Virus record (IMG/VR): IMGVR_UViG_3300036859_000134
Span: 1-60,001 of that record
Source: a virus
DNA: 60,001 nt
Direction: 5' to 3' (one strand)
Of the stretch, positions 5,946 to 53,995 are shown in pieces. Position numbers and translations under genes: made by a program. The notes under the pieces were generated by a model, which had not been told where the DNA came from, made no database searches, and worked only from the letters and a program-made list of their open reading frames with translations. Every line of letters starts with the position of its first letter. The first letter of the stretch is position 1.

Positions 5946-6317
5946 TCACGCGGCGGCTTCTTCGAACTTCGTCTCGCTGAGGTAGAGCCGCAGCACCTCG
6001 TCGTTCGTTGACGCGTTGGGCGCGTTCTTTACGCCAGCATTGGCGGCGCGGATCAACTCCATGACGCCGGCGAGCGCCGCCTGCCCGATCCCGATGCTGG
6101 AGCGCCCCTGCTCGCGCTGCCACGCGAGCATTGCGGCCACGCTTTCGCGCGCCTCCTGCACCTTGGCAGGGTCTTCGCCGTCGAGCTCGCGCAGCGTGGC
6201 CCACAGCCACACCAGCGTAGGGGCGTGCTTGTCGCGGCCGAGCAGCACGAACAGTGGTTCGTCAGGCTGCGCGTTGGCATAGCAGTCGTAGGCTCCGGGG
6301 TCGTTCTTCGTTCCCAT
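5946..6317 (-). CDS. Conserved phage protein, 123 aa
   Basis: The opening KNDPGAYDCYANAQPDEPLFVLLGRDKHAPTLV matches a pattern seen in many phage small proteins of unknown role. The start ATG 6317 overlaps the stop of the reverse transcriptase (TGATG), so it is translated from the same message as the DGR, directly downstream of it. Confidence 0.7.
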   Translation of the reverse strand: MGTKNDPGAYDCYANAQPDEPLFVLLGRDKHAPTLVWLWATLRELDGEDPAKVQEARESVAAMLAWQREQGRSSIGIGQAALAGVMELIRAANAGVKNAPNASTNDEVLRLYLSETKFEEAAA

Positions 6318-7681
6318 CAGGAAGCTCCTTTGCGATAGGTCTTGGTGAGGTCCGACTTGACGCTGTGCCCGCGCTGCCGAATGGCATTCGCGAGCCGCGC
6401 CAGGTCGGCGTGGCCATGGGATGCCTGTCGAAACAGGCCCATGTAGCTGTTGGCCGACGCGAACACCTCGTCGGCCGGCATGTGCTCGATGCGATGCAGC
6501 GCCGAGCGCACCGTGCGCGGCCGCGTCACACGGCGCCTCGGCTTGATGACCTGGCCGACGAAGTCGATGCCACGGTCGGCCGCCTGCAGGACGGTCTTGC
6601 TCGGATTCAGGCGCGCGTGCAGGCGCTCGGGCAGGAACGACGAGACATCGCTCAGCGCCGCGTTGAGCCACTGTGCGCTCGGGTGCAGCAGCACGAAGTC
6701 ATCGACGTAGCGCACGTAGTGCGGCGCACGCAGCTTGTGCTTGACGTGCTGGTCGAGGTCGTTGAGAAGCACGTTCGCGAAGAACTGCGACGACAGGTTG
6801 CCGATCGGCAGCCCGGTGTCGTCGGGCGCGTTGAACAGGCTCTTGTGCGGCGGTACCAGCTTCAGTAACTCGCGCTCGCCGCGGACCACGACATCACCAC
6901 GCGGGTCGTGGAAGAGGATCGTCTCGGCCAGAGCCAGCCACCACGGCTCGTGCACCTTGCGCGCCAGCTGCGCGCGCAAGACGTGCTTGTCGATCGCGAC
7001 GAAGAAGTTCGCGAGGTCGCACTTCAGGTAGAACGCGCGCCGGCTCCAGTTCTCCGTGACGCTGCGCACTTGGCGTTCGAGGCGCTTCGCCGCGTACAGC
7101 GTGCCGCGCCCTGGGATGCATGCGCACGAGTCGGCCACGAACGATGCGTGGAAGCGCGGGGCGATGTGGTTGTAGAGCAGATGGTGGACCACGCGATCGC
7201 GGAAGTCCGCGGCCCACACCTCGCGCGGCTTCGGCCGGGTGATGACAAAGCAGATCGATCGGCCGGGGCCGTAGGCGCCACTGACCAGATCGTCGTGCAA
7301 GTCGAACAGGTTCTGCTCGACATTGGCCTCGAAAGCCAGCGCGCTTGCGCTGTTGCGCTTGGTGCGCCTGCAATCGAGGTAGGCCTGCACCAGCAGGGCG
7401 AACAGGCAGGAATCTGCGGACGGCTCGGGCGCAACCTTCGTAGCTCTTGTGGTTGTTGTTCTGGTTGCCGTTGTTGAAGTTGCAATTCCAGGCGTAGGAG
7501 GCGCACCTATCGCGCTATGTGGGCCGCCATCCCGAAGGCCTTGGCCGATCAGGACGGAAGCTGCACCGGACGCGGCCCGCGCGGGGGCGGCGGTATCCGT
7601 GGTGTGCATGGCGGTGGCCTTGTGGGCCAGCGGCGCGACCAGATTCACTTGGCGCACGGGCATGAGGGCCTTGACCGTCAT
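6317..7681 (-). CDS. DGR-type reverse transcriptase
   Basis: Copies the template-repeat RNA into mutagenised cDNA. Motifs in order: LKCDLANFFVAIDK (first catalytic Asp), GLPIGNLSSQFFANVLL (the DGR-type IGxLSSQ motif in place of the retroviral/intron QG), HYVRYVDDFVLL (YVDD about residues 325-328), ARLNPSKTVL and DFVGQVIKP. The family-like region starts near residue 92 (SCLFALLVQAYLDCRR). The frame opens at ATG 7681, which overlaps the avd stop (ATGA), so translational coupling supports that start. If it is used, the first 90 residues are an unusual Ala/Thr-rich extension encoded partly by the template repeat. A GTG at 7390 is an alternative start, giving 357 residues. Confidence 0.95.
   Translation of the reverse strand: MTVKALMPVRQVNLVAPLAHKATAMHTTDTAAPARAASGAASVLIGQGLRDGGPHSAIGAPPTPGIATSTTATRTTTTRATKVAPEPSADSCLFALLVQAYLDCRRTKRNSASALAFEANVEQNLFDLHDDLVSGAYGPGRSICFVITRPKPREVWAADFRDRVVHHLLYNHIAPRFHASFVADSCACIPGRGTLYAAKRLERQVRSVTENWSRRAFYLKCDLANFFVAIDKHVLRAQLARKVHEPWWLALAETILFHDPRGDVVVRGERELLKLVPPHKSLFNAPDDTGLPIGNLSSQFFANVLLNDLDQHVKHKLRAPHYVRYVDDFVLLHPSAQWLNAALSDVSSFLPERLHARLNPSKTVLQAADRGIDFVGQVIKPRRRVTRPRTVRSALHRIEHMPADEVFASANSYMGLFRQASHGHADLARLANAIRQRGHSVKSDLTKTYRKGAS
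7413..7504 (-). repeat. DGR template repeat (TR)
   Basis: A 92-base sequence whose coding strand has the A-rich AAC-type codons typical of DGR templates. In the target frame it reads YAWNCNFNNGNQNNNHK then SYEGCARAVR. It matches VR1 (8091-8176) and VR2 (8597-8685) except at adenines. The 3' part, from the SYEGCARAVR codons, is invariant and would serve as the initiation-of-homology segment. It lies between avd and the recognisable reverse transcriptase domain, inside the open frame of the latter but in a different reading frame from the targets. Confidence 0.95.
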
Positions 7682-8040
7682 GCTGCAGGCGCCCTGTTCG
7701 CTGTCTTGAGCCAGCCGCCGGCTTGCTTGCCGATGCTACCTAGAAGCTCGATGGACTCGGCCCACAGCTTGGGAGCGAGGTATCGGCTGTCATGGCTGAC
7801 GCGCAGCAGGACCGTGACGGCTCGCTGCTTGGTCAGCAGCTCCTGGATGTGGCCCGCGCGCAGGTCGCGCTGCGTGGCGTTGGCCAGGGCCATCAGATCC
7901 AGCATGTCCACGCAGTGCTGGGTGATCTTCTCGCCCAGGATGCGCTTCATGCTGCGCGGCATCTGCTCCTGCACCTTCACAGCGAGCGAGAGCAGCCGGA
8001 CGCCGGTCCTGTAGATGGGCAGATCGGTGTGCAATGCCAT
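7678..8040 (-). CDS. avd: Avd, DGR accessory variability protein (four-helix bundle)
   Basis: 120 residues, basic and helical (LLSLAVKVQEQMPRSMKRILGEKI, then ALANATQRDLRAGHIQELLTK, then KLWAESIELLGSIGKQAGGWLK), matching the size and pattern of DGR Avd proteins. Avd forms a pentameric four-helix bundle that binds the reverse transcriptase and the template RNA and is needed for mutagenic cDNA synthesis. It sits between target 1 and the template, as expected, and its stop overlaps the reverse transcriptase ATG. Confidence 0.9.
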   Translation of the reverse strand: MALHTDLPIYRTGVRLLSLAVKVQEQMPRSMKRILGEKITQHCVDMLDLMALANATQRDLRAGHIQELLTKQRAVTVLLRVSHDSRYLAPKLWAESIELLGSIGKQAGGWLKTANRAPAA

Positions 8041-8084
8041 GGTGGTGGCGGGCTCAGTTTCAAAGGATCAAAGGACCGAAGGAA

Positions 8085-8543
8085 TCAAGCTCTGCGGACG
8101 GCTCGGGCGCAACCTTCGTAGCTCTTGGGGTTGATGTTCTGGTTGCCGTAGCCGAAGTAGCAATGCCAGGCGTAGGCGGCGTCGCTCTCGTATTCCTGGC
8201 TTGACCAGTGCCACGCCGGTTCCAGGTGAGGCTTGCAGTTCGCGAAGAGCAGCGCTTGCTCCTGACGGTTGGGCAGCGCGCCGCCAACGCTCTCGGCCCA
8301 CGCCTTCGCGTCGTTCCAGTTGAGCTTCGAGGCCGGCGTCTCGGCCATCAACACCAGGTGGTGCCGCACGTTGCCGTCGGCATCCAGCACGGTGCCGGCG
8401 TAGTGCTCACCGGCGCGCAGTTCGATGCTCGCCTCGGGAATGGTGAGCAGCGTGATCTCTTCGGCCTGTGCTTGCAGCTTCTCGATCATTGCGGCCAGTT
8501 CGGCCTGCTTGGCCTTCACGGCCTCCATCGTGATCGCGGTCAT
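8085..8543 (-). CDS. DGR target protein 1, DUF1566/C-type-lectin-like, variable C-terminus
   Basis: 152 residues starting at ATG 8543 with AAGGAG four bases upstream. An N-terminal coiled coil (EAVKAKQAELAAMIEKLQAQAEEI) is followed by a small beta domain and the DUF1566 pattern LNWNDAKAWAESVGGALPNRQEQALLFAN and AWHWSSQEYES. The last 30 residues are the variable repeat, YAWHCYFGYGNQNINPKSYE then GCARAVRRA. In this fold the varied residues line a ligand-binding surface. No signal peptide or membrane segment is seen, so it is probably cytoplasmic or carried in the particle. Its partner is unknown. Confidence 0.9.
   Translation of the reverse strand: MTAITMEAVKAKQAELAAMIEKLQAQAEEITLLTIPEASIELRAGEHYAGTVLDADGNVRHHLVLMAETPASKLNWNDAKAWAESVGGALPNRQEQALLFANCKPHLEPAWHWSSQEYESDAAYAWHCYFGYGNQNINPKSYEGCARAVRRA
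8091..8176 (-). repeat. DGR variable repeat 1 (VR1)
   Basis: Aligned to template positions 7413-7498 with no gaps. Seven differences, at template positions 7450, 7456, 7472, 7474, 7475, 7481 and 7487, all where the template coding strand has A. The 37 bases at the 3' side are identical. They change Asn/His codons to His, Tyr, Gly, Tyr, Ile and Pro. Confidence 0.95.
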
Positions 8544-8575
8544 GGTGCTCCTTGCGGTATGAAAGGATTGAAGGA

Positions 8576-8986
8576 TCAAGCGGCCAGGTGAATCAAGCGG
8601 ACGGCTCGGGCGCAACCTTCGTAGCTCTTGTGGCGGTAGCTCTGGGCGCCGTTGCGGAAGTGGCAAAGCCAGGCGTAGGAGGCGCCGTACTCTTCGTTGG
8701 TCCAGTGCCAGTCGGGCTCGAACTGGGCCTTGGCGTTGGCATAGAGCAGGGCCGCTACAGGGCGCGACGGCAACTGCCCGCCGACCTCGTCGGCCCATGC
8801 CATGGACTGCTGCCAGGTCATGCGCTCCTGCGCCTTGTTGGGCAGCAGGATCACGGCGGCGTGCTGGCCGGTGGGCAGCGTCGTGACGCCGGCAAAGATG
8901 CCGCCTTCGAGCTCGGCGCCAAGCGCTGGGAGAGAGGCGAACGAGAGGGTCGCGGTTGCGGTGGATTCTTGAGCGATGGCTTCCAT
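8576..8986 (-). CDS. DGR target protein 2, DUF1566/C-type-lectin-like, variable C-terminus
   Basis: 136 residues, paralogous to target 1 in its second half (MTWQQSMAWADEVGGQLPSR, then PVAALLYANAKAQFEPDWHW, then EYGASYAWLCHFRNGAQ). The C-terminus carries VR2 and ends ARAVRLIHLAA. The N-terminal 45 residues are a beta-rich segment (ELEGGIFAGVTTLPTGQHAA) instead of the coiled coil of target 1. Neither target has an export signal. The ribosome site before ATG 8986 is weak. It lies first in the DGR cassette, downstream of the DUF2303 gene. Confidence 0.9.
   Translation of the reverse strand: MEAIAQESTATATLSFASLPALGAELEGGIFAGVTTLPTGQHAAVILLPNKAQERMTWQQSMAWADEVGGQLPSRPVAALLYANAKAQFEPDWHWTNEEYGASYAWLCHFRNGAQSYRHKSYEGCARAVRLIHLAA
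8597..8685 (-). repeat. DGR variable repeat 2 (VR2)
   Basis: Aligned to template positions 7416-7504 with no gaps. Eleven differences, all at template adenines (7453, 7454, 7457, 7459, 7465, 7466, 7474, 7475, 7481, 7486, 7487). The match extends six bases further on the 5' coding side than VR1. A nine-base direct repeat (ATCAAGCGG at 8575-8583 and 8592-8600) flanks its 3' end. Confidence 0.95.
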
Positions 8987-14809: not shown

Positions 14810-14850
14810 AGTCTAGGCACAGATGCCTTAGACGTCAAGGCATATGTGCC
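14810..14850 (-). promoter_or_regulatory. Leftward early promoter with two repressor operators (OL1, OL2)
   Basis: On the minus strand a -35 box TTGACG (14838-14833) and a -10 box TAGACT (14815-14810) are separated by 17 bases. Two operator dyads of the form GGCA-N4-TGCC overlap them: 14816-14827 in the spacer next to the -10 box and 14839-14850 touching the -35 box. Repressor bound here would block the whole leftward operon, including the DGR. Confidence 0.85.
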
Positions 14851-15059
14851 TTACGATGCCGACGGGTCTGCCAATTCAGTTACCTAATGCATTACGTAGT
14901 TTGGCTGCGACTGTTCCGGCATTCGCGCCCACAGGCTCACGCAGTGAGCTACCGTCGAGGAATAGTCGGTGTAACCGAGTGCTTTTCGGCCAATCGAGCC
15001 TAGCGAGCATCGGCGTAGATTGTCGAAGTGACCTGGATGTTGTTGGGGGGCAAGAAAGA

Positions 15060-15962: not shown

Positions 15963-16038
15963 GGCAAGTTTGCCAAGCCTCAAAGGAGCCAGAGCAAGGC
16001 AAATGTGCCTTGACTGGTAAGGCAAGTGTGCCTAGGAT
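15963..16038 (+). promoter_or_regulatory. Rightward early promoter and operators OR3, OR2, OR1
   Basis: -35 TTGACT (16010-16015) and -10 TAGGAT (16033-16038) with a 17-base spacer drive the Cro-like gene and rightward early genes. Three dyads GGCA-N4-TGCC lie at 15963-15974, 15998-16009 and 16021-16032; the last two cover the -35 box edge and the spacer, the first abuts the repressor start. They share the half-site with the two operators at 14816-14850. Confidence 0.85.
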
Positions 16039-18162: not shown

Positions 18163-19785
18163 TTGCTCACCGGACAGTACATCCTGCCCATCGCTCACGA
18201 ACTGATTGTTGACCTGTTCGCCGGTGGCGGCGGCGCCAGCACTGGCATCGAGCGCGCCACCGGCCGCCACGTCGACATCGCGATCAACCACGATCCCGAG
18301 GCGGTCAGCCTGCACCAGGCGAACCACCCGCAAACGCAGCACTTCGTCTCGGACGTGTTCGAGGTCGACCCGGTCGCAGTGTGCGGCGACCGGCCGGTGG
18401 GCCTGCTGTGGGCGTCACCCGACTGCAAGCACTTCAGCAAAGCCAAGGGCGGAAAGCCCCGTAGCAAGAAGATCCGCGCGCTGGCCGACGTCATTGTGCT
18501 GTGGGCGGAGAAGGTGCGCCCGCGCGTCATCTGCATGGAGAACGTCGAGGAGTTCAAGACCTGGGGCGAACTCGACGACGACGGGTATCCGATTCCCGAG
18601 CGCGCGGGCGAGCTGTTCAAGGAATGGCGCCGCAAGATCGAGGCGCAAGGCTACGTCGGTGAGTTTCGCGAGCTTCGCGCCTGCGACTACAACACGCCGA
18701 CGATCCGCAAGCGACTGTTCGGGATCTTCCGCTGCGACGGCGAGCCGATCGTATGGCCGGAGCCCACGCACGGGCCGGGGCGCAAGCCGTACCGCACGGC
18801 GGCCGAGTGCATCGACTGGTCGCTGCCGTGCCCGAGCATCTTTGAGCGCGACAGGCCGCTGGCCGAGGCCACGATTCGACGCATCGCGCACGGCATCAAG
18901 CGCTACGTGCTCGACACGGCGAAGCCGTTCATCGTGCCGGTGACCCATCCAACCGACGCGCGCGTGCACTCGATCGACGAGCCGCTGCGCACGATCACCG
19001 GCGCGAATCGCGGCGAGCTCGCGCTGGCGTCGCCGACGTTGATCCAGACGGGCTACGGCGAACGCCCCGGCCAAGCGCCGCGCGTGCCTGGGCTCGACAA
19101 GCCGCTCGGCACTGCGGTCGATGGACAGAAACACGCGCTCGTCGCGGCCTTCCTCGCGAAGCACTACGGCGGGAACGAGACGCCCGGCTGGCCACTCGAC
19201 AAGCCGATCAGCACGGTGACGACGCAGGACCACCACCACCTAGTCAGCGCGCAGCTGGTGGGTTGTGGTGGCCGCGCCGGCCAGAGCCGCCCGCGCGAGG
19301 CCGCCGAGCCGGTGCAGACGATCACGGCCAAGGGCGACACTTGCCTGGTCACCTCGCACCTCGCGAAGCTGCGCGGCACCAGCTCGAGCGCGGCCACCGA
19401 TGAACCGCTGCACACGGTCAGCGCCGGCGGCACGCATCACGCCGAGGTCCGCGCGCTGCTGCTGAAGTACTACGGCACTGACCAGGATCCGAACCTGCGC
19501 GAGCCGCTGCACACCGTCACCACCAAGGATCGCTTCGGCCTGGTGACCGTGAAGGGCGAGGACTACTTCATCGCCGACATCGGTATGCGCATGCTGCAGC
19601 CGCGTGAGCTGTACCGCGCGCAGGGCTTCCCCGAGAGCTACATCATCGACCGCGGCGCCGACGGACGGGTGCTGTCGAAGGCGGCGCAGGTCCGCATGTG
19701 CGGCAACAGCGTCTGCCCGCCGCTGGCGAGCGCGATCGTCGCGGCGAACTACAGCGAGCAGCAGGCGCTGCGGAGGGCCGCGTAA
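18163..19785 (+). CDS. DNA (cytosine-5)-methyltransferase
   Basis: Transfers a methyl group from S-adenosylmethionine to C5 of cytosine in DNA, probably to hide phage DNA from host restriction. TTG start at 18163 behind AGGAGAA. Motif I is IVDLFAGGGGAS; the catalytic Cys88 sits in WASPDCKHFS, an SPDC form where most family members have PPC; ENV is in ICMENVEEF; LRACDYNTPTIRKRLFGIF corresponds to motif VIII; the C-terminal GNSVCPPLA is motif X. Between residues 270 and 450 the target-recognition region has five or six repeats of about 45 residues built on EPLxTIT...LVxxxLxKxYG. 540 residues. No partner restriction enzyme is nearby. Confidence 0.93.
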   Translation: MLTGQYILPIAHELIVDLFAGGGGASTGIERATGRHVDIAINHDPEAVSLHQANHPQTQHFVSDVFEVDPVAVCGDRPVGLLWASPDCKHFSKAKGGKPRSKKIRALADVIVLWAEKVRPRVICMENVEEFKTWGELDDDGYPIPERAGELFKEWRRKIEAQGYVGEFRELRACDYNTPTIRKRLFGIFRCDGEPIVWPEPTHGPGRKPYRTAAECIDWSLPCPSIFERDRPLAEATIRRIAHGIKRYVLDTAKPFIVPVTHPTDARVHSIDEPLRTITGANRGELALASPTLIQTGYGERPGQAPRVPGLDKPLGTAVDGQKHALVAAFLAKHYGGNETPGWPLDKPISTVTTQDHHHLVSAQLVGCGGRAGQSRPREAAEPVQTITAKGDTCLVTSHLAKLRGTSSSAATDEPLHTVSAGGTHHAEVRALLLKYYGTDQDPNLREPLHTVTTKDRFGLVTVKGEDYFIADIGMRMLQPRELYRAQGFPESYIIDRGADGRVLSKAAQVRMCGNSVCPPLASAIVAANYSEQQALRRAA

Positions 19786-26042: not shown

Positions 26043-26981
26043 ATGTCCCAGTCGCGCAGGAGCAGCGGCAAGCCGGCCGGCAAGGCGCCGGCGAAGAAGA
26101 CACCGAAGCGGGGTAGCTCAACGGCAGAGCAGCGGGTTCATACCCCGAAGGCAGCTGGATCGACACCAGCCCCCGCTACCACCCCCAAGCCCACCGCCAA
26201 ACGCGCCCCCGCCAAGAAGGCGGCACCCCCGAAGCCTGCGCGCAAGAAGGCGCAGCCAACCGAGCCGGCGCAGCCGTCGGCCGCAGGCACCGCCCAGCGC
26301 CTGCTCGCAGCAGAGCCGGCACCAGACCCCGAGACGGGGCTGCACCCGCGCGTGCGCGCCTTCGCCGACGAGTACCTGCGCGACTTGAACGGGACGGCCG
26401 CCTATCTGCGCGTGCACCCGGACGCCAAGGTGAGCACCGCTGCGACCGAGTCGTGCCGCATCCTCAGAAACCCCAAGGTCCGGGAATATGTCGCAGCGCG
26501 CCGCGAGCAGATGGCGTTGGCGGTCGACTTCAGCAAAGAGGACGTGATCCGCGAGCTCGTGGCGCTTGTCCGGGCGGATCCCAACGAGCTCACGCAGATG
26601 CGGCAGATCTCGTGCGACGAGTGCTGGCCGCCGGAGAAGGACGAGGGCGGGGAAAAGCGGTTGCCCATGTGGACCGAGCCGAACCCTGAGTGCCCGCACT
26701 GCAACGGCAACGGCATCCCGCGGCCGTGGTTCGCCGACACCCGCAAGCTCTCGCCGGCCGCGCGCCGGCTGTTCAGCTCGGTGCACGTCACGCGCGACGG
26801 CATGCGCATCAACCTGCGTGACCAGGATGGCGCGCTGGACAAGCTCGCGAAAGTGTTCGGCGCCTACGAGGAAGACAACAAGCAGAAGCAGGGCACACTT
26901 GCCGAGGCCCTCAGCGAGTTGTTCGGCCAGCTGCACAGCGCCGGCGGATCCCGGCTGCCGATCGCGGGGCGCGGTAAATGA
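26043..26981 (+). CDS. Terminase small subunit, with a tRNA gene in its 5' part
   Basis: Recognises phage DNA and recruits the large subunit for packaging. The family region begins near residue 100: VRAFADEYLRDLNGTAAYLR, then STAATESCRILRNPKVREYV, and VIRELVALVRADP, the small-terminase helix-turn-helix type; a CDEC...CPHC metal-knuckle-like segment follows at about 200-225. The frame opens at ATG 26043, but residues 22-46 are encoded by a tRNA gene (26107-26181); on both sides lies a Lys/Ala/Pro-rich linker. Either the tRNA inserted in frame in a flexible linker or translation starts later, for example GTG at about 26352. Its stop overlaps the large-subunit start (ATGA). Confidence 0.85.
   Translation: MSQSRRSSGKPAGKAPAKKTPKRGSSTAEQRVHTPKAAGSTPAPATTPKPTAKRAPAKKAAPPKPARKKAQPTEPAQPSAAGTAQRLLAAEPAPDPETGLHPRVRAFADEYLRDLNGTAAYLRVHPDAKVSTAATESCRILRNPKVREYVAARREQMALAVDFSKEDVIRELVALVRADPNELTQMRQISCDECWPPEKDEGGEKRLPMWTEPNPECPHCNGNGIPRPWFADTRKLSPAARRLFSSVHVTRDGMRINLRDQDGALDKLAKVFGAYEEDNKQKQGTLAEALSELFGQLHSAGGSRLPIAGRGK
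26107..26181 (+). tRNA. tRNA-Met (anticodon CAT)
   Basis: A full cloverleaf of 75 nt with encoded CCA: acceptor AGCGGGG/CCCCGCT (7 bp), TA at 8-9, D-stem GCTC/GAGC, anticodon loop TTCATAC with a 5-bp stem whose first pair is G-A mismatched, variable loop of five, T-stem GCTGG/CCAGC with loop ATCGACA, discriminator A. A phage-borne elongator-type Met tRNA (a CAT anticodon may also be modified to read Ile AUA). The atypical U54 position (A) and the mismatch leave some doubt about function. Confidence 0.85.
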
Positions 26982-45433: not shown

Positions 45434-48400
45434 ATGCCGAGCATCGCCGACCTGCGCAAGAAGCTCCCATACCTCGACGGACTCGACGATCAGCAGGCCG
45501 TCAACGTCATCCAGCAGGTGTACTACCCGAGCGTGTCGCGCGACGTGCTCGCGCAGCGCCTGGGCGTCCAAGCACCGGAAGCACCGCCGCCGAGCGACGG
45601 CATCGTGCGGCGCATGGGTGACGTCGGCCTGTCGCTGGCCAAGGGCGTCATCGAGGTGCCCGAGGCAGCCGTCGGCCTGGCCGACCTCGCCACGGGCGGA
45701 CGCGTCGGCAAGATGGCCGAGGCCATGGGCTACCGGCCGAAGGAGGCCCGCGAGTTCCTCGACCAGTACTACAGCGACTCGGCGAAGGCGGCGCAGCAGA
45801 AGGTGAACGATGCGAAGGGCATCGTGGACACCACGGTCGCGGCGCTGCAGAACCCATCGGTGATCGTGAACTCGGCGGCCGAGTCGCTGCCGTCGATGGG
45901 GCTCGGTGGCGTGATCGGCCGCGGTGCCGTCGCGATCGCGCCGCGCATGTCGCCGGTCATTGCCGGCGCGATCGGCGAGGGCGCGGTGTCGGCCGGCCAG
46001 AACGCGGAGCAGGTGCGCGAGGAGGGCCCGAACGGCACGCTCACCGGCAAGCAGTCGGCGATCCTGGCCGCATCCGGCGCGCTCACCGGCGGGCTGAGTC
46101 TGCTCGGTGGCAAGGTGGCGCAGAAGCTGGGCATCCACGACGTGGACACCATGCTGGCCACCGCCGGCAAGAGCGATGCCGCGCGCAAGGGCATCGTGCG
46201 CAGCACCATCGAAGGTGCGCTCTCCGAGGGCATCCTCGAAGAGATGCCGCAGTCCGTGCAGGAGCAGGTCGCGCAGAACCTCGCGCAAGGCAAGCCGCTG
46301 GACGATGGTGTCGATCAGCAGGCCGTGCTCGGCGCGCTCACCGGCGGCCTCATGGGCGGCGGAGCGAACGCCCTGCACGGCGCCCAAGCTGCGCCGCAGA
46401 AGCTGCCCGAGACCGGCCCGATGTCGCGCGCGGTGAATGCGGGCATCGACAGCGGTGCAGTGGCGTTCCAGCCGGTCCCGGTACCGGCGGCCAAGCCCGC
46501 GGAGCCGGCCATCGCCGAACCGTCGTCGGACAGCATTCCTTTCGAGGCCGATCCGCGCTTCGCGCAGGCGCCGGCGGCGGACATCGCCATCGGTGAGGGT
46601 GGCCTGCTCGGCACGCACGAGGCCGTCGAGTCGCAGCCTGGTGCCTTCGAGGTGCGGCCGATCGGTACGAGCGCCGGCATGGTCGCGCCCGGCGTCTACG
46701 AGGCCGCGCCGACGCCGGCCGCTCCGCAGCGCCAACTCGAGCGTCCGGCGCCGGTGGAGGCGTCGCCGCCTGCAGCCGCGAACCCTGCGCCGGAGACGTT
46801 GGCGCCAGGGCCTGCTGCTGCTGCGCCGCAGACGAAGGGGCCTTTCTCGTCCGTGCAAGAGGCCGAGGGCTACATCTCGCAGCAGCGGCGCGCCGCGAGC
46901 GCGAACCTGCCCGTTGCACTTCCCATCGAGCACGCCGACGGCAGCGTCGGTGTGGCCACCTCCGGCTCTCCGGATTTCGAGACGGCGAAGCAGCAGGACG
47001 TGACGCGCCAGCGCGCCGCCGCCGGCATCCTCGACGGCGACGTGATGAACGCGAGTGGCAGCCCGTTCAAGAACCAGGGCGCCGCGCGACGCGCGCTCAA
47101 GGCGAACCCCGGGACGGTGATCGCGGAGGTCAAGGGCGGTTGGGTGCTGCGGAAAGGACCTGCCGATGTCAGCGTGGATGTGGCCGCTGGACGAGGCGCT
47201 GGAGACAGCGGTGATGGCGGGCGCTCTGAGCCTGCTGGAGGCGAACAAGCTGCAGGACGAGCACCTGTTGAACCCGTACCTGCCGTACCCGCTGGAGCTG
47301 ATGCCGGCGGTGCTGAAGTGGCGCCTGTTCGCGATGGACAGCAACGAGATGACGCGGCAGTAGTCGATGCCGCGGCTCATGAGGCTGCGACCTCGCCGAC
47401 GAACGACTTGCCGCAGCCCACCGAGGCGCAGCGCGAGGCGGGCAACTTCAAGATGGGCCACGCCAAGGTGTCCGGCCTTGACGTGACCGTCGAGTACCCG
47501 AAGGGTTCGGAGCGCACCGGCACCAGTGCTTCAGGCGAGCAATGGCGCCGGCCGATGAATGCCCACTATGGCTACATCAAACGCACCGAGGGCGCCGACG
47601 GCGAGAACGTCGATGTCTACGTGGGCCCGTCGCCTGACGCGCCGAAAGCCTACGTGGTCGACCAGACCAAGGCCGACGGCTCGTTCGATGAGCACAAGGT
47701 CATGCTCGGCTACAGGTCGATGGGCGCGGCCCGCAAGGCCTACCTGTCGCACTACCCCAAGGGGTGGAAGGTCGGCGCGATCACCGAAGCGCCGGTCGAG
47801 GATTTCAAGGCCTGGCTGAGGGATGGCGACGCGACCAAGCCATTCGCCTCGAGTACCGCGCCGAAGGGCGCACAGGAAACGGCCGCCCCTGAACCTCAAA
47901 GCGCGGCCGAGCACCCAGGAGAGAACCATGGCGAAGAAGGGCAAGGGCGGCGGCAAGAAGTGCTGACGCCGGGGGCGCCGGAGGCTGGTGCGCCGGCGCC
48001 CACCCCAGACCGCAAGCCACGCAAGACAAAGCGCGAGCCTGAGACCGTCGAGGATCGCACTCCGCCGGTGATCGCCGACGCCGGCGAGAAGATCGGCGGC
48101 GCTCGCAAGGACCGCTGGAAGGAGCGCGGCCTCAGCGTGGCCGACCTCGACGCCATGAGCGAGTCGGAGGGCGCCGAGCTCGCGACGAAGGCGAACGTGT
48201 GGAAGCCGGACTACGCGGCGATGGTGGCCGGCGGCACGCCGCCCAAGCATGCAGCGCTCGTCAAGGTGGTGTACGACCGGCTGGCCGCTCAGCCGGCGCG
48301 TAACACACCAGAAGGCCGGCGCGCCTACGTGCAGATGATGCAGGCCGTACGCGCCGCGTTCGGCTCTCTCGACGGGACGCAGGACCCGCGCCGCGCGATG

Positions 48401-51400
48401 ACCGAGGCGCGAGACAACATGCTGAAGGCCATCGGCATGCACAGCCGCGACACCGCGGAAGTGCAGAAGGCCAAGCAGCTGCTGTTCTCCGTCTACAAGG
48501 GCCGCAGCGAGCCGTTCCAGGTCTTCTACGACGAGGAGCGGCGCGCCGACAAGATGGTGCGCGACGGCTTCCCGGGCAAGGTCGAGCCGTGGACGCGTCG
48601 CTTCGTGCTGCGCGACGCCGGCGGCGCCGGTACCACGGACGCGGGCGTCGGCATTTACCGGGAGGCCTCCGAGAAGCTCGGCACGCCGCTGGCCGACGAG
48701 CAGATCAAGGCGGGGTTCTTTCAGGTGCGGTCGAAGGCCGGGCAGACAGTTGCCATGCTGCCGACCAAGGCCGATGCCGAGGTGGCTGCGAAGCGCCTGT
48801 ACGAGGCCACGCTGGCGAAGGAATCGACCGAGGAGCCCGAGCGGCCGCACCTCGACAAGCTGTCTCGCGAGGGTCTGCCGAAGAGCGTCGATCGCGACGT
48901 GACGGCCGATGACTTCCTCAAGCACTTCGGCTTCCGCGGCGTGGAGTTCGGCAACTGGTCGGCGCAGGACGAGCGGCAGAAGCTGCTCAACCTCTCATAC
49001 GACGGCTTGACCGACCTCGCCTCGATCCTGAACGTGCCGCCCAAGGCGCTGAGCCTGAACGGCACGCTGGGCATGGCGTTCGGTGCGCGCGGCGGCGGCC
49101 GCTTCGCCGCGCACTACGAGCCGGGCAAGCTCGTCATCAACATGACGAAGATCCGCGGCGGCGGGTCGCTGGCGCACGAATGGGCGCATGCGCTCGATCA
49201 CTACCTGGGCGAGCTCGCCAAGGACGACGCCTACAAGACCAGCGCGCGCGGTGCGTCGGGCTGGATGCAGCGCATGGTCTACGACCGCGGGCAGCAGAAG
49301 AAGCTCGCCTACGAGCCAGGCACGCGCAAGATGATCAGCGTCGCGACACCGCGCCTGACGAACCTGCGCACCGAGTTGGCCGAGTCCATCGACAACGTCA
49401 TGCAGACGATGTTCGGCGCAGACAGGCAGCCGACCAGCTATGCCCGCGAGGCGCAGAAGCTGTCGGGCAAGTCCGAGGACGGGTACTGGATCCGGCCGAC
49501 GGAGATGTGGGCCAGGGCCTTCGAGTCCTACGTGTTCGATCGCCTGCTGGCGATGGGCGCGAAGTCCGAATACCTGGTGCACGGCGTCGAGCCCGATCGC
49601 TTCGCTGCAGCCGACCGGTACAAGGGCAACCCGTACCCCGTGGGCGCGGAGCGTGCGGAGATCAACAAGGCGTTCGACAGGTTCGTCGGCGAGCTCAAGT
49701 CGCGCGACACCGACAACGGCGTGGCGCTGTACAGCCGCGGTGCCGGCCGAGGCCTGTCCGCCGACGCCGTCGAGAAGCACATCCGCCCGATCGTCGACTC
49801 GTGGGCCAACGGTCCGAAGGGCGGCGTGGAGGTCGTGAAGAAGGCCGGCGAGCTGCCGGCCAACGTGCTGAAGGCGGTGAAGGCTGCCAATGCCGACGGC
49901 GTGGCCAAAGCGTTCTTCGTGCCCGGCACCGAGAAGGTCTACCTGATCGCCAGCAACCTCGAGTCCACGGCCGACGCCGAGTTCGCGCTGTTCCATGAGG
50001 TCTACGGGCACTACGGCATGCGGTCGATCCTCGGCGACGACTATGCCCAGGCGATGACGCGGCTGCGCCGGCAGAACCAGAACCTCGCGATGCAGGCCTC
50101 GATGTGGATGTCGCGCTACGGCGCCGACGAGGTCAAGGCGCGCGTCAAGTCGGGCATGGACAAGCTCGCCGCCGAGCGCGAGGTGCGCCTGCTGTCGACC
50201 GAGGAGGCGCTGGCCGATGCCGCGGCCGCGGTGCCGGAGTTGAAGGGCTGGAAGTACGTCGCTGCGCGCGTGCAGGCCTTCCTGCGCAAGATCGGCCTGC
50301 ACTCCATCGCCGACTGGATGGAGACGCGCACCGAGGCCGAGACGCTGCAGTTCCTCGTGCGCGCGCGCCGCGGGGTCCAGGGCGGCATGGCTGGGCTGCC
50401 CACCGGCGAGCAGGCGCTGTTCTCGCGCGACGACGAGCGCCATGCGCTGCAGGCGCTGTCGCAGAACGATGACCTGTTCGCGCTGCCGAAGTCCGACAAG
50501 ACGACGGTGGAGGGAATCGCCGCGGACGTGGACCCCGAGATCAAAGTCAAGAAGCGCTCGAACATCCCGGGCGAGACGCGCTACGACCTGACCATGCCGG
50601 ACGGCAAGACAGCGCGCCTGATGGTGCGCGAGCCGAACCCCTACGGGCAGAGCACGTACGGCTTCGACTACGTCGACGGCGAGATGTCCAGCGTCTACAA
50701 CGAGCGGCCCGGCGAGAACCCCGAGGACGTGCCGCCCAAGGGCGATGTTTGGATCGACGTGTCGCTGCTGGAGAGCGGCGGAGGCGGCACGCAGGTTTAC
50801 GCCATCGCTGCCAACTACGCGCACAACACGGACCGCATCTTCATCGGGGATCCTGCCGGACTGTCCGACGAGGCGATGATGCGCCGGCCGGAGCAAATGC
50901 TGTCCAGTGCGCTGAAGTTCGGCACGACAGAGCACCTCGCGCCGCACCCGCGACAGGTGGCAGGCGATGAGAAGCTGGGCGTGCCGCCGCTGCGCTGGGT
51001 CTACGGTGACGACCCGGGCAACATCCGCAGGCTCGTTGACCTCAACCTGAAGACGCTTGAGAATGCAGGCCTTTCCGACGCAATCACTTTCGACCCCACC
51101 AGTGGACAGTTCCTCGACTCAGAAGGCCAACCCATCGACAGAGCGGGCATCGACGCTGTCGCCGTGGAGGCGCGTCTCGGCGAGCGAGCGCGCGCAGGCG
51201 GCCGAACGCTTGCGCGCAGCGCTGTCCTGCGTGCCCTTCTACGCGAGGAAGGCGGCGGAGCACAAGGAGCGGACCGGGGACGAGATGGGCTACTGGCTCG
51301 ACTTGCAAGGCTCGGAGATGACACTCCGGAGGCCACCCGTCGCCTCTTCTACAGCCGCGGTACCGGATACCTCGACACCCTGAGGTCGGCGGGCACGGCC

Positions 51401-53995
51401 CGCGCGTTCGGCGAGGCGTTCCACGACCTCAGCAAGACGCAGCGCGGCTTCAACTGGTGGCACCGCAGTGTCGGCACCCAGTACCACAAGGCCCAGGCGA
51501 ACGAAGGCTTCAAGCGCGTGTACGAGCGCGCGCAGGACTACCTGCACGACACGTCGGCTTTCGCCAACGACGCCGCAGAGTACGCGAAGGACCTGCTGCC
51601 GCAGCTCAAGAGCCTGCGTGACCTGGGCCGGCGCATCGCGCTGCCGGAGAAGGATCGCGAAGCCATCGCTGCGCCGATCTACGACGGCACGCTGCGCTAC
51701 ACGCGCGACGCCGACGGCAACCTGCAGGAGGCCGGCGAGGGCGACCACGCTGGCGTGGTGTTCACCGACAACGAGCTGCGCGAGCGCTTCGGCCTCGACG
51801 ACCGGCAGATCGGCCTGTACCACCAGTACCGCGCCGCGATCGACCGGTCGCTCGACATCATGACCGCGTCCGACGTGGCGCGGCTGATGGGCGAGGCCTT
51901 GCCGAAGGACATGCGGCAGATGGTCTCGGAGGGCGACACCGGCCGCTTCAAGGGCCTGGTGACCGCGCTGCTCGCCGACCGCATCGAGAAGGCCGGTGGC
52001 CCGCAGGAGAAGTCCTCGCTCGAGGAGATGCGCAAGCTCGTCACCGAGAAGTACGACCGCATCGACCAGCTCAAGAACGAAGGCTATGCGCCGCTGATGC
52101 GCTTCGGCCGGTACACGGTCGACGTCACCCGGCCCGGCAACGACGGCTCGGACCGCGTGTTCTTCGGCATGTACGAGAGCCAGCGCGAGGCGAACGCGGC
52201 CGCGCGCCAGTTCGCCAAGGACGACGGCGTGCAGGTCACGCAAGGCGTCATGTCCAAGGAGGACTACAAGCTCTTTGCGGGCATGAGCCCGGAGACGCTG
52301 GCGCTGTTCGCCGACCTCGCGGGCGTCGAGAAGAACGACGCCTTCCAGAAGTACCTGCAGCTGGCCAAGGCCAACCGGTCGGCGATGAAGCGCCTGATCC
52401 ACCGCAAGGGCGTGGCCGGCTTCTCCGAGGACGTGACCCGCTCGCTGGCGCAATTCATCACCAGCAACGCGCGGGCGTCGTCGGGCAACCTGCACATGGG
52501 CGAGATGGAGAACGCCGTGGCGGCCATTCCGCGCGAGCAGGGCGACGTGCGCGACGAGGCGATGCGGCTGAAGGAGTACGTGCAGAACCCGCAGGAGGAG
52601 GCGCAGCAGATCCGCGGCCTCCTGTTCGCGCAGTACCTCGGCGGCTCGGTGGCGTCGGCGATGGTCAACATGACGCAACCGCTGACGATGACCCTGCCGT
52701 ACTTGAGCCAGTTTGGCGGCGCCGGCCAGGCGATGACCCGGCTCGTGTCGGCCATGAAGCAGGCGGCTGGCAAGGTGGATGCGAAGTCCGAGCTCGGTCA
52801 GGCGCTCGCCAAGGCCGAGAAAGAGGGCATCGTCAGCCCGCAGGAGATCCACCAGCTGCAGGCGGAGTCGTCGCGCAGCATGGGCAACCATCCGTGGGTG
52901 CGCAAAACGCTGTTCCTGTGGGGCAGCCTGTTCCAGCTCGCCGAGCAGTTCAACCGGCGCTCGAGCTTCATCGCGGCGTACGACATCGCGAAGGCGCAGG
53001 GCATGGCGGACCCGTTCGCCTTTGCCGCCAAGGCGGTCGACGAGACGCAGGGTGTCTACAACAAGGGCAACCGGCCGAACTGGGCACGGGGTGCACTGGG
53101 CTCGACGCTGTTCACGTTCAAGCAGTTCTCGATCGGCTACCTCGAGTTCCTCGCGCGGCTGCCGATGAAGGAACGCGCGCTGGCGCTCGCCGTTCTGCTG
53201 CTCGCGGCGGGGGCCCAGGGCCTGCCGTTCGCCGACGACGTGGACGACCTCGCCGATGCGCTGGCGCAGCGCATGGGCTACGACTTCAACAGCAAGCGGC
53301 GCAAGGAACGATTCCTGGCCAGCGTGCTGGGGCAGGGCGGGGCAGACTTCGTGCTCCATGGCTTCTCCGCGCTTCCTGGAATGCCGCTCGACGTGTCAGC
53401 CCGCATGGGCGTGGGCAACCTCATCCCCGGGACCGGCATGCTGCTGAAGTCGGAGAAGGATGCGTCGAAGGATTTCGCCGAGATCGCGGGCCCGGCCGGC
53501 AATCTGGTCACCGGAGCACGAGACCTCGCGGTGAACGGCAACGCCAGGGCATTGATGCCGACGGCCATCGCGAACCTGTCGAAGGCGCTGGAGATGTACC
53601 AGACGGGCCAGTACCGCGACACGCGAGGCCGCAAGGTGATGGATGTCGGAGCCGGCGACGCCGTGACGAAAGCCCTGGGCTTCCAGCCGCAGCAGGTGGC
53701 CAGCGATTCACGGAAACGCCAGGTGCAGGCGCAGCAGAACAACCTCGCGAAGCAGGTGCAGGCCGAGATCGTGCAGCAGTGGGCGGCTGGCATCGTCGAC
53801 GGCGAGCCCGACCAGGTGAAAGCCGCGCGTGACCGCGTGGCGAAGTGGAATCGCGACAACCCGGAGAGCCGCATCGCGGTGTCGCCGGCTGCCGTGGCCG
53901 GGCGCGCGCGCGAGATGCGCCGCGATGCCGACGAACGCGCCGTGCGCGGCGCACCCAAGACGATGCGCGCCGACGCGCGAGCGGTGCTGCAGTGA
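45434..53995 (+). CDS. Giant polyvalent virion protein, 2853 aa
   Basis: A multidomain protein of the large polyvalent type carried in the particle and injected with DNA. Domains in order: helical Gly-rich membrane-like N-part (about 110-320), linkers, an inorganic-pyrophosphatase-like polyvalent domain (about 670-795: NFKMGHAKVSGLDVTVEYPK ... VDVYVGPSPDAPKAYVVDQT), a domain with zinc-protease motif HEWAH (H1248-E1249...H1252, in GGGSLAHEWAHALDHYLGEL), a domain with HEVYGH (1521-1526), a PLxRFG domain (APLMRFGRYTV, about 2215), and C-terminal amphipathic helices with two hydrophobic spans. Linker 570-660 is overprinted by another gene. The N-part may form a membrane channel; peptidase and phosphohydrolase activities are inferred from motifs only. 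Confidence 0.9.
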   Translation: MPSIADLRKKLPYLDGLDDQQAVNVIQQVYYPSVSRDVLAQRLGVQAPEAPPPSDGIVRRMGDVGLSLAKGVIEVPEAAVGLADLATGGRVGKMAEAMGYRPKEAREFLDQYYSDSAKAAQQKVNDAKGIVDTTVAALQNPSVIVNSAAESLPSMGLGGVIGRGAVAIAPRMSPVIAGAIGEGAVSAGQNAEQVREEGPNGTLTGKQSAILAASGALTGGLSLLGGKVAQKLGIHDVDTMLATAGKSDAARKGIVRSTIEGALSEGILEEMPQSVQEQVAQNLAQGKPLDDGVDQQAVLGALTGGLMGGGANALHGAQAAPQKLPETGPMSRAVNAGIDSGAVAFQPVPVPAAKPAEPAIAEPSSDSIPFEADPRFAQAPAADIAIGEGGLLGTHEAVESQPGAFEVRPIGTSAGMVAPGVYEAAPTPAAPQRQLERPAPVEASPPAAANPAPETLAPGPAAAAPQTKGPFSSVQEAEGYISQQRRAASANLPVALPIEHADGSVGVATSGSPDFETAKQQDVTRQRAAAGILDGDVMNASGSPFKNQGAARRALKANPGTVIAEVKGGWVLRKGPADVSVDVAAGRGAGDSGDGGRSEPAGGEQAAGRAPVEPVPAVPAGADAGGAEVAPVRDGQQRDDAAVVDAAAHEAATSPTNDLPQPTEAQREAGNFKMGHAKVSGLDVTVEYPKGSERTGTSASGEQWRRPMNAHYGYIKRTEGADGENVDVYVGPSPDAPKAYVVDQTKADGSFDEHKVMLGYRSMGAARKAYLSHYPKGWKVGAITEAPVEDFKAWLRDGDATKPFASSTAPKGAQETAAPEPQSAAEHPGENHGEEGQGRRQEVLTPGAPEAGAPAPTPDRKPRKTKREPETVEDRTPPVIADAGEKIGGARKDRWKERGLSVADLDAMSESEGAELATKANVWKPDYAAMVAGGTPPKHAALVKVVYDRLAAQPARNTPEGRRAYVQMMQAVRAAFGSLDGTQDPRRAMTEARDNMLKAIGMHSRDTAEVQKAKQLLFSVYKGRSEPFQVFYDEERRADKMVRDGFPGKVEPWTRRFVLRDAGGAGTTDAGVGIYREASEKLGTPLADEQIKAGFFQVRSKAGQTVAMLPTKADAEVAAKRLYEATLAKESTEEPERPHLDKLSREGLPKSVDRDVTADDFLKHFGFRGVEFGNWSAQDERQKLLNLSYDGLTDLASILNVPPKALSLNGTLGMAFGARGGGRFAAHYEPGKLVINMTKIRGGGSLAHEWAHALDHYLGELAKDDAYKTSARGASGWMQRMVYDRGQQKKLAYEPGTRKMISVATPRLTNLRTELAESIDNVMQTMFGADRQPTSYAREAQKLSGKSEDGYWIRPTEMWARAFESYVFDRLLAMGAKSEYLVHGVEPDRFAAADRYKGNPYPVGAERAEINKAFDRFVGELKSRDTDNGVALYSRGAGRGLSADAVEKHIRPIVDSWANGPKGGVEVVKKAGELPANVLKAVKAANADGVAKAFFVPGTEKVYLIASNLESTADAEFALFHEVYGHYGMRSILGDDYAQAMTRLRRQNQNLAMQASMWMSRYGADEVKARVKSGMDKLAAEREVRLLSTEEALADAAAAVPELKGWKYVAARVQAFLRKIGLHSIADWMETRTEAETLQFLVRARRGVQGGMAGLPTGEQALFSRDDERHALQALSQNDDLFALPKSDKTTVEGIAADVDPEIKVKKRSNIPGETRYDLTMPDGKTARLMVREPNPYGQSTYGFDYVDGEMSSVYNERPGENPEDVPPKGDVWIDVSLLESGGGGTQVYAIAANYAHNTDRIFIGDPAGLSDEAMMRRPEQMLSSALKFGTTEHLAPHPRQVAGDEKLGVPPLRWVYGDDPGNIRRLVDLNLKTLENAGLSDAITFDPTSGQFLDSEGQPIDRAGIDAVAVEARLGERARAGGRTLARSAVLRALLREEGGGAQGADRGRDGLLARLARLGDDTPEATRRLFYSRGTGYLDTLRSAGTARAFGEAFHDLSKTQRGFNWWHRSVGTQYHKAQANEGFKRVYERAQDYLHDTSAFANDAAEYAKDLLPQLKSLRDLGRRIALPEKDREAIAAPIYDGTLRYTRDADGNLQEAGEGDHAGVVFTDNELRERFGLDDRQIGLYHQYRAAIDRSLDIMTASDVARLMGEALPKDMRQMVSEGDTGRFKGLVTALLADRIEKAGGPQEKSSLEEMRKLVTEKYDRIDQLKNEGYAPLMRFGRYTVDVTRPGNDGSDRVFFGMYESQREANAAARQFAKDDGVQVTQGVMSKEDYKLFAGMSPETLALFADLAGVEKNDAFQKYLQLAKANRSAMKRLIHRKGVAGFSEDVTRSLAQFITSNARASSGNLHMGEMENAVAAIPREQGDVRDEAMRLKEYVQNPQEEAQQIRGLLFAQYLGGSVASAMVNMTQPLTMTLPYLSQFGGAGQAMTRLVSAMKQAAGKVDAKSELGQALAKAEKEGIVSPQEIHQLQAESSRSMGNHPWVRKTLFLWGSLFQLAEQFNRRSSFIAAYDIAKAQGMADPFAFAAKAVDETQGVYNKGNRPNWARGALGSTLFTFKQFSIGYLEFLARLPMKERALALAVLLLAAGAQGLPFADDVDDLADALAQRMGYDFNSKRRKERFLASVLGQGGADFVLHGFSALPGMPLDVSARMGVGNLIPGTGMLLKSEKDASKDFAEIAGPAGNLVTGARDLAVNGNARALMPTAIANLSKALEMYQTGQYRDTRGRKVMDVGAGDAVTKALGFQPQQVASDSRKRQVQAQQNNLAKQVQAEIVQQWAAGIVDGEPDQVKAARDRVAKWNRDNPESRIAVSPAAVAGRAREMRRDADERAVRGAPKTMRADARAVLQ
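47166..47363 (+). CDS. Overprinted small gene inside the giant virion gene, 65 aa
   Basis: ATG 47166 follows AAAGGA seven bases upstream; stop TAG 47361-47363. The protein MSAWMWPLDEALETAVMAGA, then LSLLEANKLQDEHLLNPYLP, and LKWRLFAMDSNEMTRQ is a well-formed helical sequence. Its third codon positions are 62 of 65 G/C, whereas the giant-protein frame over the same bases has 24 of 65, and that stretch of the giant protein is low-complexity Gly/Ala/Asp. The small frame is thus the selected one. Function is unknown. Confidence 0.7.
   Translation: MSAWMWPLDEALETAVMAGALSLLEANKLQDEHLLNPYLPYPLELMPAVLKWRLFAMDSNEMTRQ
47928..47966 (+). CDS. Mini ORF inside the giant virion gene, 12 aa (uncertain)
   Basis: MAKKGKGGGKKC, ATG behind AGGAGAG at good spacing, in a frame different from the giant protein. 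Lys/Gly-rich. Too short to prove; it may be a remnant of an old intergenic region. Confidence 0.25.
   Translation: MAKKGKGGGKKC

Follow-up and report, generated by a model that had tools for sequence, protein, structure and literature searches.

Organization of the DGR locus

The window analyzed here is a stretch of 60,001 nucleotides (positions 1 to 60,001 of IMG/VR virus record IMGVR_UViG_3300036859_000134). Its minus strand carries a diversity-generating retroelement (DGR), with the parts in the order target gene 1, target gene 2, avd, template repeat (TR) and reverse transcriptase (RT). The preliminary description had called this a complete DGR with two targets, and Avd, one TR, a DGR-type RT and two further repeat copies, the variable repeats (VRs), could indeed all be identified. 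Its claim of a canonical order holds for the succession of the parts, but an unusual RNA architecture was overlooked. The features are as follows:

8576–8986 (−): target gene 1, 136 aa, lectin-like C-terminal domain
8597–8685 (−): VR in target gene 1 (aligned copy from 8594), 11 adenine-site changes
8085–8543 (−): target gene 2, 152 aa, C-type-lectin fold (AlphaFold pLDDT 95.8)
8091–8181 (−): VR in target gene 2, 7 adenine-site changes
7678–8040 (−): avd, accessory protein (Pfam bAvd; PHROG "Avd protein of DGR")
7503–7694 (−): RT-15 structured RNA (Rfam RF03018), 192 nt, covariance-model match, between avd and TR
7640–7646 (−): 5' strand of a long-range helix, GAATCTG, inside RT-15
about 7413–7504 (−): TR, from the repeat alignment, within the RT reading frame
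7410–7416 (−): partner (3') strand of that helix, CAGATTC, at the TR 3' junction
6317–7681 (−): RT open reading frame, 454 aa (Pfam RVT_1; PHROG 1423)

The repeats form a single family of three copies, and a repeat search of the 60 kb record found no fourth. According to the fold search, the best solved match of the RT is 8ub7, the reverse transcriptase of the BPP-1 DGR RNP, and the protein is closer by far to DGR RTs than to retron RTs. Target 2 is predicted with confidence to adopt a C-type-lectin-like fold, and its nearest structural match is the C-terminal domain of Legionella Lcl. The Lcl_C matches of both targets fall under the Pfam curated cut-off. Identity as a DGR is thereby supported by every sequence-level test applied: the type of RT, the presence of Avd, a TR/VR pair, differences between the two at template adenines, and a lectin-fold target with its VR at the C-terminus.

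A P22-like portal and a GP4-type fibre identify the virus as a podovirus. Both targets are found in the recombination/early region near RecT, on the strand opposite the virion genes, and lack tail domains; a function in receptor binding, as for Mtd, should therefore not be taken for granted. The integrase (1031–2672, −) is apparently split between two frames near 1790, either by a real frameshift or by an assembly error. It adjoins the 3' part of uvrB (126–1397, +), and the left edge of the record is therefore probably bacterial flank. Other features of the prophage are a tRNA-Met (26107–26181, +), a C-5 cytosine DNA methylase (18163–19785, +; such a gene also lies near the DGR in the phages Haboob and QDWS), and a polyvalent protein of 2853 residues with LPD37, inorganic-pyrophosphatase and LPD1 domains (45434–53995, +). 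Two 40-nt inverted arms (14813–14852 and 15996–16035) with repeated AAGGCA..TGTGCCTT units flank a repressor-sized ORF and are operator-like.

Related loci

RT homologs were gathered from annotated phages, IMG/VR and prokaryote genomes, the last mostly of beta- and gammaproteobacteria. About 150 relatives were compared; these loci share kinship, and counts over them are not independent. The structure run was made without two rows from annotated records. Most loci have two VRs, and sometimes three or four, so two targets are the rule in the clade.

Among the annotated relatives are Burkholderia phage Magia, Pseudomonas phages Cruim01, Haboob and LPPA56, and Shewanella phage vB_Sb_QDWS, with RTs 62–67% identical to that of the window. 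All five resemble the window in having Avd, RT-15, two or three small targets, and a TR whose 3' end lies in the RT frame; the start of the RT varies among them. Lectin-fold DGR targets had already been noted by the annotators of Magia, and the GenBank record of Cruim01 lists RT-15 beside the RT. None of the five records annotates the helix.

The 60 nt after each VR (loci L004–L170 and the window) contained perfect stems of at least 7 bp in 52 of 311 flanks, against 3 of 311 when shuffled, which recalls the hairpin/cruciform of BPP-1. A crude signal-peptide rule flagged 15 of the 311 targets.

Adenine-specific change

In the aligned core, all 18 substitutions fall at template adenines, 11 in the copy at 8594 and 7 in the copy at 8091, as had been described previously, and a recount also gave 18 adenines between the first and last variable codon. 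Having every mismatch at an adenine has a probability of about 2e-4 in one alignment and 6e-8 in the other, in agreement with the earlier judgment that chance is a very unlikely explanation. The 8091 copy has one extra mismatch, T>G, at its 5' edge and beyond the variable window of the preliminary description.

Comparing the VRs of relatives had been proposed as a check. Pseudomonas phages Haboob and phPA-G have the same TR and almost all flanking sequence in common, and their VRs differ at 13 and 12 sites (25), every one an adenine. Likewise, L073 and L074 have identical RTs over the compared 1 kb, and one matched VR differs at 14 adenines and nowhere else. Across 291 distinct TR/VR pairs, adenines differ at ∼13–73% per 5-base bin over most of the repeat, with the least change toward its 3' end, and non-adenine bases at about 1%; since the pairs were preselected with an adenine filter, these totals (A>G 1862, A>T 1165, A>C 584) carry a selection bias. 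Together, the comparisons show adenine-specific transfer from TR to VR in this clade, as read from the sequences.

The adenine-only VR divergence between close relatives is also the most direct support for the statement that the element has been active. The apparently split integrase would fit a defective prophage in which the DGR has decayed and no longer works, but RT, Avd, TR, VRs, RT-15 and the helix are all intact and both VRs differ from the TR at adenines only within the core, and we consider decay unlikely.

RT-15 as the probable leader of the DGR RNA

A full-length match to RT-15 (RF03018) spans 7694–7503 with 162.3 bits, well above the gathering score of 82, and ends at the TR start. 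RT-15 was found directly 5' of the TR in the window and in 30 of the 31 relatives scanned; the sole relative with no match, L031, is on a contig cut just before the RT. This constant position makes it very probable that RT-15 serves as leader of the DGR RNA. The name of the Rfam family makes no mention of DGRs; the family model stops where the TR starts and has the pairing segment GAAUCUGG as single-stranded. RNAalifold lists pairs of the first RT-15 hairpin.

The window lacks the structured spacer RNA 3' of the TR that marks BPP-1-type DGR RNAs: no match to Rfam Phage_DGR (RF03022) was obtained between positions 6000 and 9200 at E-values up to 1. The RT coding sequence was also scanned for reduced synonymous change as a sign of a further, concealed RNA element. 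The dip was only slight and limited to the first 40 codons, too little to claim such an element, and the scan of the coding sequence gave no clear synonymous constraint at the RT start.

A long-range helix between leader and TR junction

In the Rfam model, the conserved RT-15 segment UGAAUCUGG has no pairing partner. It shows complementarity to CAGAUUCA, the 3' junction of the TR. The pairing in the window is 7646–7640 with 7416–7410. Over 76 loci, 88.0% of helix cells are paired, compared with 22–45% when the strands are slid against each other. Covariation is 0.261 in this set (0.095 ± 0.010 shuffled) and 0.265 in a wider set of 124 distinct rows (0.100 ± 0.008). One helix position displays all four Watson-Crick types among the 76 loci (33 G-C, 27 U-A, 11 C-G and 2 A-U), and one pair has changed between Watson-Crick states at least nine times on the RT tree. 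RNAalifold recovers the helix unprompted, and it is present in both the MFE and the centroid fold of the window RNA folded alone, although the total energy of that RNA is no more stable than that of its shuffles (z −0.73). As far as sequence comparison reaches, these data show a covarying helix that joins the RT-15 leader to the TR 3' junction.

The same complementarity might instead serve pairing with the target, as a guide-like step at the VR 3' flank, or be a by-product of TR/VR homology. The VR 3' flanks have a CAGATT core in common with the TR junction, and in some loci the flank pairs better than the TR. As a negative control, leader–flank pairing was higher than expected, at 65% of cells, and a test of discordant sites was therefore run. 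At sites that distinguish TR junction from VR flank, the leader agrees with the TR alone in 684 cells and with the VR alone in 189; at pairs 6–8 the numbers are 425 and 46. The leader–flank excess over shuffles is also much smaller than the leader–junction excess. Helix position 5 is an exception to the leader following the TR, as relatives' TR junctions often have an A·C mismatch here while the VR flanks keep a pairing T. Pairing with the target, or a by-product of TR/VR homology, is thus a rather improbable explanation of the complementarity, and a helix within the template RNA itself is preferred.

The template lies within the RT reading frame

The RT open reading frame begins with ATG 7681, which overlaps the avd stop codon; from there it continues through RT-15 and the TR. 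The RT-frame ATGs (7681, 7663 and 7609) are all upstream of the TR, which places the TR inside the RT ORF. The length of the short spacer between TR and RT is divisible by 3 in 141 of 148 loci (76/78 in a first set, with 12 of 13 distinct lengths, and 65/70 in a second set), and the RT tree has 44 changes of spacer length and 3 of frame. From the avd stop to the TR end, the RT frame is free of stops in 64 of 82 loci, compared with 0 and 5 for the other frames, and in 47 of 73 loci of the second set, compared with 1 and 5. In the second set, roughly one locus in three carries RT-frame stops within the leader.

Three arrangements could be distinguished. The frame is open from the leader through the TR in 107 loci including the window (A); it is closed upstream in 35 loci, 32 of which have an ATG within the TR (B); or the RT has a separate start downstream of the TR and the frame is no longer kept (C, 13 loci). 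An in-frame ATG at one homologous TR codon occurs in 32/105 loci of A, 32/35 of B and 0/13 of C. It is supplied by an AAT or GAT codon before GG, and the choice between AAT and AAC is nearly free for the target protein because both encode the same residue in the target frame. Comparison of the loci shows that in most relatives the RT frame is either kept open through RT-15 and TR or restarted by an in-frame ATG inside the TR.

The amino acids encoded in the RT-15 leader are under hardly any constraint: pN/pS is 0.82, against about 1.0 in the other frames; inside the TR it is 0.37 in the target-protein frame and 1.09 in the RT frame; and in the RT frame it is 0.44 for the spacer and 0.25 for the RT core. 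In the AlphaFold model, RT residues 1–87, encoded by RT-15 and TR, are predicted to be disordered, and the confident RT fold begins at residue 88, at about 7420. The RT seems to put up with its N-terminal extension more than to require it, and in the leader/TR region constraint appears to act mainly on the RNA. We infer translation of the leader from frame conservation only.

The weak constraint on leader amino acids and the disordered residues 1–87 are what one would see if the locus were a BPP-1-like DGR with a non-coding TR, the RT starting just after it at GTG 7390 and RT-15 being merely a regulatory 5' RNA. The GTG is present and in frame in the window, and a minority of relatives do start the RT after the TR. 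Yet a start after the TR would not demand that a widely varying spacer remain a multiple of 3 in 141 of 148 loci, and the loci with a separate start lose the frame. Initiation at 7390 would furthermore cut the first RT helix (residues 93–107), and the leader pairs with the TR junction. The non-coding reading accordingly has little probability in our view. The data instead suggest that the template and its structured leader double as the beginning of the RT gene, and that the conserved RNA helix keeps the two together.

Proposed mechanism

We estimate at roughly 80% the probability of our main reading, in which the DGR of a temperate podovirus diversifies two small C-type-lectin proteins and falls within a clade, made up of proteobacterial phages and prophages, that has an RNA architecture of its own. 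A single transcript might be both the RT mRNA and the template RNA. RT-15 would recruit RT and Avd, and the leader–junction helix would position the RT at the TR 3' end, setting the 3' limit of the template and the start of mutagenic cDNA. Ribosomes crossing RT-15 and TR and an RT copying them should be mutually exclusive, so that translation and templating would compete for one RNA. The two target proteins may act as variable binding modules.

A broader reading is a second, inverted class of DGR RNA, in which RT-15 binds RT and Avd 5' of the template and is clamped by the helix to the template 3' end, in a retron-like layout that may supply the primer. Because the same RNA encodes the RT N-terminus, templating and translation would compete and may regulate each other. 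We offer this tentatively, as somewhat less probable than an even chance.

Comparison with known systems

The DGR of BPP-1 (mtd/avd/TR/brt) is like that of the window in its RT fold, Avd, a TR upstream of the RT, adenine mutagenesis and a C-terminal VR in a C-type-lectin target. Its Mtd has a lectin fold. The BPP-1 target is a tail protein, whereas the window encodes two small free-standing proteins at a distance from its tail genes. No leader separates avd from the adjoining TR in BPP-1, and the spacer RNA (Rfam Phage_DGR, RF03022) follows 3' of the TR, before brt; an Rfam scan of BPP-1 found Phage_DGR at this place and no RT-15. Recruitment and priming have been placed in this 3' spacer (PMC12875486), for which no counterpart was found in the window. 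Here the structured RNA is instead 5' of the TR, on the opposite side of the template, and the TR is inside the RT ORF.

TRs overlapping RT ORF ends were noted for structural group 3 of the DiGReF survey, which inferred that the arrangement is irrelevant to mechanism; the section of the survey concerned does not examine frame, start codon or RNA pairing (PMC3521204). In the papers covered, an incomplete set with few subscription titles, neither the helix nor the conservation of frame turned up, and a search for RT-15 by name gave no match.

Retrons (msr-msd-RT) are alike in topology alone, with a structured RNA 5' of the template and the RT gene 3' of it; the window differs from them by its DGR-type RT, Avd, adenine mutagenesis and target genes.

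Most of what is understood about the mechanism of DGRs comes from a single system, BPP-1, where the functional RNA is 3' of the template. The Rfam family RT-15 gains a likely role from the present comparison, with the long-range helix as a probable mark of the template end. As the template would also be coding sequence, it raises the question of how translation and mutagenesis are kept apart. Compared with BPP-1, this clade of proteobacterial phages appears to have moved the functional RNA to the other side of the template.
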